Virus record (IMG/VR): IMGVR_UViG_3300009011_000033
Coordinates: 1-36,482 of that record
DNA: 36,482 nt
Strand: one strand, 5' to 3'
Source: a virus
The translations under genes were made by a program, and so were the position numbers. Shown here one piece after another: positions 29,774-32,366 of the stretch. The notes beneath the pieces are model-generated. The model ran no database searches. It worked only from the letters and a program-made list of their open reading frames with translations, and had not been told where the DNA came from. Numbering within the stretch: position 1 is the stretch's first letter; each line of letters begins with the position of its first letter.

Positions 29774-29901
29774 TCCACGTATCCAACTGGTGGCAACGCC
29801 CACTGACCTGCCTGCTGGGGCTTCACCGCTTCCGGCCCCACCCCGGCGGCATCCGCTGGAAGGTCTGCTACGTCTGCTTCGGCGAGAAGGAAACCCGATG
29901 A
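29770..29901 (+). CDS. Small Cys/His protein, 43 aa
   Basis: GTG at 29770, in a GTGA overlap with the portal stop; its TGA overlaps the next ATG (ATGA). It has TCLLGLHRFRPH and VCYVCF, i.e. C...H...C-x2-C, which could bind zinc. It is short but in a tightly overlapped position. Unknown role. Confidence 0.58.
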   Translation: MIHVSNWWQRPLTCLLGLHRFRPHPGGIRWKVCYVCFGEKETR

Positions 29902-32366
29902 TCCGCACAGCCACCCTTGCCCTGTCAGCGGAGACGTTCGCCGCCGACCGCAAGTCCTACCTTGCCCGCAATGATGAGGAACTGCGCCCCCATGTGAAGG
30001 AGGCGCTGATCCGGCTCGGCCTGCCCGGCTGGGAACAGCAGATCGTCTCCGCCGCGCTCGATGTCTTCGACGTCACGGCCCGCTCCGAGGTGGACGAGTG
30101 GAATCAGGTCATCGACGACATGCGCGCCGCGTTCGCGCACGAGCTGTCCGAGGCGCTGGCGAAGACCAAGACCGCCAGCAACCGGGAGGCGCAGACCGAC
30201 ACCGTCACCCGCTGGGTGTCCACGATGGCGGTGAACGCCGCAACCGAGGCGGCCACCACCTCCGACACCGAGAACGACGTCGGGCTCGAATGGGTCACCA
30301 TGCACGACGGCGACGTCCGCACCCCGCACCGCGAGGCCGAGGGGCAGATCGTCCCGTCCGGGCAGGAGTTCACCGTCGGCGGGGAGAAGATGTTCTACCC
30401 CGGCCAGCCGGTCGGCGACCCGTCCAATTGGATCAACTGCCGCTGCGTCGCCCGGCCCACCATGCTCGACAACGGGGACGCGTCCATCGTGGCATCCGGC
30501 GCTGACGAGACTGACGGGGAGGGCTTCACTTCCGCGGTGATCGTGGCCCTGCCCGCCGAGTCCGACCCGGTGTCCGCCGCATCCTCCGAGGCCGACGGCG
30601 CGCACTGCACCCTGCTGTTCCTTGGCGACACCGCCAACCTCGACGCGGACGCGCTGAAGAACGCGCTGGCCGAGTTCGTCACCAACGGCGAGGTCGGCGT
30701 CATGACGGAGAACGTCTCCGGCCGGGCCACCCTCGGCAAGGACAGCGCCGACGTGGTGCTGATCGACGGCGCCAGCCTCGTCAACATCCGCAAGGGGATG
30801 CTCGAAAACTCCGACGAACTGTTCTCCGCCTACGACGCGGTCGAGCAGTTCCCCACGTGGATTCCGCACGTCACCCTCGGCTACCCGGAAACCCCCGCCA
30901 GCGGGGAGTTCGCCGGGGAGCAGATCACCTTTGACCGCCTCGCCCTCTGGTTCGGCGAGGACCGCACCGCCATCTATCCCCTTGGAGGAACCCCTGTGTC
31001 CGATAATGCCCCTGCCACCGAAGCGGTCACAGCCGCCGTGGAGGATGCGAAGCCCGCAGAGCCCGCGCCTGCCGCTGAAGCCCCCGCCCCTGACGACCAG
31101 TCGTCACCCGACGAAACCCCTTGGCACGGAGTCCTCGCCCCCGAGGGAACACCCTCCGGCGACGGCCGCCAGTTCGCCCTCGGCGCCCTGACCAACCGGG
31201 ACCTGCCCCTGCCGCTGAAGGCGATGTTCATCGACGACGAGGGCCACAAGGGCTCCGTCGTGGTCGGGCGCATCGACAACATCTTCCGCGACGGCAACCT
31301 CGTCAAGGGTGAGGGCGTCTTCGACAACTCCCCCGAAGCCGACAAGGCGAAGGGCATGGTCGAGCGCAAGATGTGGCGCGGCGTCTCTGTCGACGTGGAC
31401 GCCGCAGAGCTGTCCGTCGCCGACGACACCGCCGAGGTCCAGGTCACCGAGTTCTCCACCGCCCGGATCGCGTCCGCGACCATGTGCGCGATCCCCGCGT
31501 TCGCCGAGGCATACGTCGCCATCGGCACGTGGGCCAACGCCGCCGACGACGAGACGGCACCGGAACCGGCCGCCGACGCCCCCGAGGCCGCACCACTCCC
31601 GGCCGGGCAGAAGCTGTCCTCCGTGTCGCTGGTCGCCTCCGCCGCCACCATCAGCGCCGACTACTTCCGCAACCCCATGCTGACCGAGGAAACCCCGCTG
31701 ACAGTCACCGAAGACGGCCGGGTCTTCGGACACGTCGCCGGGTGGGAAACCTGCCACATCGGCTACGAGGTCTGCACCACCGCGCCGCCGTCAGCCACCG
31801 ACTACGCGTACTTCCTCACCGGGCAGGTGCTCACCGACGCCGGGCCTGTGGCGGTCGGCCAGATCACCCTCGGCGGCGGGCACGCCGACGGGCGCTTCGG
31901 CCTGCGGGCCGCGGTCGCACACTACGACAACACCGGTTTTGCCGTTGCGGACATCACGGTATTCGAGGACGAGTTCGGCATCGCGTTCTCCGGCAAGCTC
32001 CGTGATGGTGTGACCGACAAGCAGGTCCACGAACTGCGTGCCACCGGAGTCTCCGGCGACTGGCGCGAAGTCCGGGTCCGCGGGAACACCTCGATGGAAA
32101 TGATTGCGGCGCTGTCTGTGAACGTGCCGGGCTTCCCGATTGCCCGCTCCCGGGCAACGTACGCCAACGGCCATCAGGTGTCGCTCATTGGGCGCCCCGT
32201 CCAGATCAAGAAGGCCAATACCCTCGACGCGGCGTTCGTCGCCAAGCTCGACGCCTACCACGCGGCAAAGAAGCGGCAGGAAGCTGTCGCCAAGTTCCGC
32301 TCAGAAGTACGCGCCGAGAAGGTCGCGGCACTGAAATCCGAATTCACCACAACGGGAGGGAAGTAA
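29898..32366 (+). CDS. MuF head protein fused to a 2H phosphoesterase-like domain and a capsid protease-like region
   Basis: An 822-aa protein, ATG at 29898 (an ORF from 29790 overlaps the portal end and is less likely). Domain 1 (1-190): MuF-type minor head domain, ending WVTMHDGDVRTPH (132-144) and WINCRCVARP (~178-187). Domain 2 (~205-365): 2H phosphoesterase-like, with HCTLLFLG (236) and HVTLGY (324), the two HxT motifs. A Pro/Ala linker with DDQSS from palindrome copy 28 (399-403) follows. Domain 3 (~405-822): WHGVLAPEG (409) onwards, then GHVAGWETCHIGY and long regions typical of actinophage capsid maturation proteases. An internal start lies at residue 367. Confidence 0.85.
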   Translation: MIRTATLALSAETFAADRKSYLARNDEELRPHVKEALIRLGLPGWEQQIVSAALDVFDVTARSEVDEWNQVIDDMRAAFAHELSEALAKTKTASNREAQTDTVTRWVSTMAVNAATEAATTSDTENDVGLEWVTMHDGDVRTPHREAEGQIVPSGQEFTVGGEKMFYPGQPVGDPSNWINCRCVARPTMLDNGDASIVASGADETDGEGFTSAVIVALPAESDPVSAASSEADGAHCTLLFLGDTANLDADALKNALAEFVTNGEVGVMTENVSGRATLGKDSADVVLIDGASLVNIRKGMLENSDELFSAYDAVEQFPTWIPHVTLGYPETPASGEFAGEQITFDRLALWFGEDRTAIYPLGGTPVSDNAPATEAVTAAVEDAKPAEPAPAAEAPAPDDQSSPDETPWHGVLAPEGTPSGDGRQFALGALTNRDLPLPLKAMFIDDEGHKGSVVVGRIDNIFRDGNLVKGEGVFDNSPEADKAKGMVERKMWRGVSVDVDAAELSVADDTAEVQVTEFSTARIASATMCAIPAFAEAYVAIGTWANAADDETAPEPAADAPEAAPLPAGQKLSSVSLVASAATISADYFRNPMLTEETPLTVTEDGRVFGHVAGWETCHIGYEVCTTAPPSATDYAYFLTGQVLTDAGPVAVGQITLGGGHADGRFGLRAAVAHYDNTGFAVADITVFEDEFGIAFSGKLRDGVTDKQVHELRATGVSGDWREVRVRGNTSMEMIAALSVNVPGFPIARSRATYANGHQVSLIGRPVQIKKANTLDAAFVAKLDAYHAAKKRQEAVAKFRSEVRAEKVAALKSEFTTTGGK
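30984..30998 (+). promoter_or_regulatory. Internal ribosome-binding site and GTG start in the fusion gene
   Basis: GGAGGA (30984-30989) stands six bases before the in-frame GTG at 30996 (residue 367), exactly where the 2H domain ends. It would yield a 456-aa product with linker and protease-like region only. Confidence 0.55.
31091..31106. repeat. Palindrome copy 28, in a coding region, centre CA
   Basis: The only copy in the rightward arm; encodes DDQSS in the linker 95 bases downstream of the internal start. Confidence 0.93.

Follow-up and report, generated by a model that had tools for sequence, protein, structure and literature searches.

A 2H phosphoesterase-fold domain as an exchangeable cassette at the MuF/protease junction of a phage head protein

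Organization of the head operon

We analyzed a viral DNA stretch of 36,482 nucleotides (IMG/VR record IMGVR_UViG_3300009011_000033; hereafter, the window), a genome fragment of a phage whose hosts are probably soil actinobacteria. Its head operon shows the canonical order of terminase, portal, a MuF-2H-protease gene, major head protein and major tail protein, with these features:

26026..27558, + strand: terminase large subunit gene (PF03237, E = 2e-19)
27920..29773, + strand: portal protein gene (phrog_776, E = 2e-153)
29886..29891, + strand: Shine-Dalgarno-like GAAGGA, six bases 5' of ATG 29898 (read from sequence)
29898..32366, + strand: whole gene, 822 aa, MuF - 2H - S78 protease - C-terminal domain (ORF list, PHROG 859)
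30150..30452, + strand: MuF domain core, residues 85-185, with an INCRC motif at its end (PF04233, phrog_2468)
30531..30980, + strand: 2H phosphoesterase domain, residues 212-361 (AlphaFold2 model, fold matches, phrog_24711, phrog_2659)
30603..30611, + strand: first HxT motif, H236-C-T238 (H and T invariant in 61/61)
30867..30875, + strand: second HxT motif, H324-V-T326 (H and T invariant in 61/61)
30996..31112, + strand: Ala/Pro/acidic linker from 2H to protease, residues 367-405 (sequence; low-confidence end of the 2H model)
31110..31571, + strand: S78-type capsid maturation protease domain, residues 405-558, with His450 and Ser497 (fold, conservation)
31623..32222, + strand: conserved C-terminal domain, residues 576-775 (phrog_18402/29860, conservation)
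32229..32351, + strand: long C-terminal helix, residues 778-818 (AlphaFold2 model)
32662..34332, + strand: major head protein gene (phrog_777, E = 9e-137)

The frame of the central gene is open from ATG over all 822 aa. A longer start at GTG 29790 is possible, but the GAAGGA hexamer precedes ATG 29898 instead. PHROG 859 matches residues 32-807 (E = 6e-132), and full-length homologues with ~60% identity occur in Arthrobacter phages. The original prediction had read a MuF, a 2H and a protease part in this single protein; all three were recovered, in the order MuF, 2H and S78-type protease, followed by a conserved C-terminal domain.

For residues 85-185, PF04233 scored 28.9 bits (E = 2e-6) in hmmscan, slightly below the cut-off of 29.6, and 32.5 bits, above the cut-off, in a genome-wide search. 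The MuF part also matches phrog_2468 (E = 7e-20), and its C-R-C columns are invariant or almost so across 127 relatives. With a PF04233 domain and a gene placed after that of the portal, the protein has both hallmarks of a MuF head protein.

Fold and conservation of the 2H domain

The protein has just two H-x-T/S motifs, at residues 236 (HCT) and 324 (HVT), exactly where they had been noted at the outset. PHROG profiles match the domain (phrog_24711, E = 3e-21; phrog_2659, E = 8e-8). Since both the 2H and the S78 region were marginal in single-sequence Pfam searches (E ~0.03 for 2H), alignments were built from viral contigs. The 2H alignment comprised 61 relatives with 34-88% identity, and H236, T238, H324 and T326 were invariant in all of them, down to the lowest identity. 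As 12 of 172 positions are invariant overall, the chance of the whole tetrad falling among them is ~1.4e-5. By domain, dN/dS indicated ordinary purifying selection (omega ~0.1-0.8), and 2H gave no indication of diversifying selection.

Structure prediction and fold search, suggested with the initial assignment as its check, returned a 2H fold. The AlphaFold2 model from the 61-sequence alignment reached a pLDDT of 92.2 and a pTM of 0.86, and the best PDB matches in Foldseek were Arabidopsis cyclic phosphodiesterase and Escherichia coli LigT (E ~5e-6). VIA-align placed YjcG (Z = 12.8), Arabidopsis cyclic phosphodiesterase (12.6) and TT0787 (12.6) at the top, followed by human Usb1 (11.9), the rotavirus VP3 2'-5' phosphodiesterase (11.6), a Burkholderia phage phosphodiesterase (9.7), Acb1 (7t26; 9.1) and the penguinpox cGAMP phosphodiesterase (8.8). 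A comparison of the region with the sequences of solved structures yielded no significant match. The best-scoring curated family was TIGR02258 (RNA 2',3'-cyclic phosphodiesterase; E = 3e-4), at 20.7 bits against a cut-off of 65.7. Judged by the anatomy of the model, the domain is predicted to be catalytically competent, and the modelled fold appears equally near to RNA-processing and to nucleotide-signal 2H enzymes.

Protease and C-terminal domains

The protease-like part anticipated earlier is weak by sequence (PF04586, E = 0.018; TIGR01543, E = 7e-4) and clear by fold (Z ~10). In a second AlphaFold2 model (residues 400-822, pLDDT 87), residues 400-558 adopt the fold of herpesvirus assemblin and T4 gp21, with Z = 10.3 to the varicella zoster virus (VZV) protease and 10.2 to T4 gp21. 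Both candidate catalytic residues are conserved, S497 in 71 of 71 relatives and H450 in 63 of 71.

The C-terminal domain (31623-32222) is common to ~830 phage records, in which C-H, G-H, H-Y-D and S-G-D-W-R motifs are invariant; in the window protein, the invariant residues include H620, H662, H675-Y and S719-G-D-W-R. Fold searches gave no match to this domain, the match list being filled by the protease domain. Its invariant His and Ser suggested a second, tandem S78 protease, which hhalign left unsupported (probability 0.4%). The domain may serve as a further enzyme or in head binding.

Exchange at the MuF/protease junction

HMMs of the four parts (MuF, 2H, S78 and C-terminal domain, CTD) were run across all loci. 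MuF-2H-S78-CTD was the commonest order among 2H-bearing loci (~49 loci, some being re-fetches of one contig). Other arrangements were 2H-S78-CTD in Curtobacterium phage Kithara, CTD-2H in Gordonia phage GTE6, MuF-S78-2H-CTD in loci L109 and L110, and a separate 2H gene adjoining the protease gene in Gordonia phage Danyall (gp19) and in L065, L066, L069 and L076. In Streptomyces phage CricKo, Rhodococcus phage ReqiPoco6 and Gordonia phage Nithya, 2H occurs with a short DUF7211 upstream of terminase. Throughout the named phages examined, the 2H domain is encoded within the head-gene cluster or next to it.

Many MuF-S78-CTD proteins carry a spacer of 28-100 aa in place of 2H (Skermania phage SPI1, Akoma, ReqiPine5, Serendipity and Shatter). 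In Pseudanabaena phage Pam4 (L099:1757-4798), a NUDIX domain (E = 5e-18) occupies the slot between MuF and S78 protease that holds 2H in the window. The closest pair of loci, L030 and L158, have MuF parts with 96% identical DNA; L030 contains 2H and L158 does not. Inside the MuF-protease gene of L158, an HNH-endonuclease ORF (L158:2910-3431; PF13392, E = 1e-6) lies in another frame. A Pfam scan of the other insert segments gave meaningful matches to NUDIX and intein alone.

Mapped onto a tree of the C-terminal domain, the presence of 2H switches at least 7 times across well-supported branches, or 18 times when every branch is counted, absence being absence from the fetched locus. Between Arthrobacter phage Tank (L055) and the window, the head parts are 63-67% identical and the 2H domains only 43%, a difference that suggests replacement of 2H. 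The 2H domain is thus an exchangeable cassette at the MuF/protease junction, with repeated gain, loss or replacement.

Several further features were seen at these loci. The frame of the MuF-protease gene itself remains open across the HNH ORF of L158. An intein-like splicing domain (PF14890) interrupts the MuF part of the MuF-protease protein in L150:1-5175, L152 and L153. In L010, L026 and L044, a frame open from the apparent portal region into MuF-2H suggests that portal is fused to MuF-2H or that a stop codon was lost. The 2H proteins 5' of terminase (L017:2341-3399, L019:6004-7716 and L020:5980-7596) bear a 25-residue DUF7211 motif, possibly a packaging or docking tag; several phage protein families, including one virion structural protein, match this motif as well.

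For Curtobacterium phage Kithara, as for many Gordonia phages, GenBank labels the 2H-bearing gene as 'RNA ligase'. The genes so named in Curtobacterium, Gordonia and Streptomyces phages (L021, L098 and others) encode 2H domains, and neither an ATP-grasp RNA ligase (PF09414) nor RtcB was found in the searched genomes. For many of these genes, the label is misleading.

Candidate roles of the 2H domain

An interchangeable insert at the MuF/protease junction suits virion cargo, and the window has a trait of virion-delivered MuF effectors, an enzyme domain fused to MuF within a head operon. We lean slightly towards a head-assembly scaffold and maturation protease that carries an active 2H payload, injected with the DNA and directed at host RNA or a defence nucleotide. 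The MuF part would bind the portal or head interior and the S78 protease would cut head proteins, with an active, exchangeable 2H phosphoesterase held between them on flexible linkers. Enclosed in the prohead, and perhaps freed by the neighbouring protease, 2H would enter the cell along with the DNA and, right at the start of infection, hydrolyse a phosphodiester or cyclic phosphate, its target being host RNA or a nucleotide signal of host defence. A search of 84,980 species genomes of bacteria and archaea with two short exact patterns, which diverged relatives can escape, confirmed no 2H relative. A literature search found no published virion proteomics for a phage carrying this protein. Exchangeability does not strictly imply a payload role; the slot could simply be permissive for inserts, as suggested by the HNH ORF of L158.

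The original prediction had linked the domain to the Acb1 type. An Acb1-like anti-CBASS enzyme, borne in the virion and cleaving CBASS cyclic di- or trinucleotides, would belong to the same superfamily. Acb1 stacks bases with the aromatics Y12, W74, F107 and W147 and has a base-specific E141 (PMC9117128). The window domain has an aromatic residue six positions before the second His, the place of F107, that is F or Y in 61 of 61 relatives, and Acb1 7t26 aligns with the model (Z = 9.1). The specific link was not supported, however: PF23474 was silent at E = 1, while both controls matched (T4 Acb1, E = 3e-60; a 40%-identical relative, E = 2e-25), cyclic phosphodiesterase, YjcG, ThpR and Usb1 are closer in structure, and the profile-profile alignment with Acb1 is limited to 49 columns near the second motif. 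NCBIfam was useless as a further test because neither Acb1 control matched. Membership in the Acb1 family was rejected on the PF23474 result; a distant kinship within the 2H superfamily remains, as far as sequence indicates, and an Acb1-like activity is unlikely. A Usb1-like RNase or 2'-5' phosphodiesterase that hits host RNA or type III CRISPR-type nucleotides at entry seems only a little less doubtful. It accords with the Z scores of human Usb1 (11.9) and the rotavirus VP3 2'-5' phosphodiesterase (11.6), and PMC5512222 proposed such an activity for MuF-2H fusions, drawing the analogy to MuF-PBECR RNases, but Z differences of ~1 cannot separate 2H subfamilies.

The TIGR02258 match, top by score among curated families and below its cut-off, would fit RNA repair, in which 2H opens 2',3'-cyclic phosphate ends and a phage ligase reseals tRNAs cut by host anticodon nucleases. 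We consider this very unlikely because RNA ligase (PF09414), RtcB and KptA were each found in 0 of 15 records of phages with the 2H domain, the window itself being a fragment, while control genomes were positive; an RNA repair enzyme was ruled against on this count. Fusion to a head protein also suits late repair poorly. A structural or spacer module without enzymatic role in infection is just as improbable: relatives function without 2H and the slot also takes an HNH ORF in another frame, but a spacer would be expected to lose the tetrad, which all 61 relatives retain even at 34% identity.

A bolder extension of the payload reading, which we regard as unlikely, would make the actinophage MuF/protease junction a dedicated cargo bay for 2H, NUDIX and other domains. 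The adjacent protease would release the cargo within the capsid for injection along with the DNA, exchange between phages would be driven by homing endonucleases that land in the slot, and the 2H cargo would act on a defence nucleotide new to 2H enzymes.

If 2H rides in the virion, phages would meet nucleotide- or RNA-based host defences ahead of any gene expression. Members of the family occur in cultured and sequenced phages that grow on laboratory hosts (Arthrobacter SilentRX and Microbacterium Hyperion), so that the packaging and counter-defence idea put forward bioinformatically in 2017 is directly testable. Part of a gene labelled capsid protease appears, from the models, to be a separate, exchangeable enzyme.

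Comparison with known systems

The nearest solved folds belong to the cyclic phosphodiesterase/YjcG/ThpR (LigT) group (Z 11-13), which has a PF13563-type sequence signal in common with the window domain. Those enzymes are cellular, soluble and found outside head proteins, whereas the window domain is part of one and falls under the TIGR02258 cut-off. Acb1 (T4 57B), the anti-CBASS nuclease, shares the 2H fold and the HxT/HxT tetrad; it is free-standing, unfused to any head protein, and belongs to another Pfam family (Z = 9.1 to the window domain).

The same gene follows the portal in Arthrobacter phages SilentRX, AWGoat and Tank and in Microbacterium cluster EG phages, with the MuF-2H-S78-CTD order and identities to the window protein of 51-60% (Arthrobacter) and ~35% (Microbacterium). 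These genes are named capsid maturation protease and MuF-like fusion protein, with the 2H part unmentioned. The available text of PMC7302621 likewise notes the cluster EG MuF-protease fusion and does not mention 2H. It also describes MuF-VIP2 ADP-ribosyltransferase fusions in Microbacterium phages, which, like the window protein, place an enzyme payload on an actinobacteriophage MuF; the enzyme differs, and placement before a protease is not described there.

Closest in concept are the MuF-2H and portal-2H fusions described by Iyer et al. (PMC5512222, 2017) and in the NAD-ADPr survey (PMC9503650, 2022), where 2H sits on a head protein as here and packaging, injection and counter-defence, by RNase or anti-nucleotide activity, were proposed; the 2022 survey additionally describes fusions of NUDIX to MuF, portal and capsid-processing peptidase. 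The available text of both gives no account of a triple fusion with protease, of exchange at the MuF/protease junction or of catalytic conservation. The MuF-2H fusion concept was therefore already published, and the window protein is a well-supported further case. To it, our analysis adds model-based structural evidence that this group has the 2H fold, together with the invariance of its putative catalytic tetrad, results that speak against both RNA repair and membership in the Acb1 family, and the demonstration that the cassette is exchanged at the MuF/protease junction.
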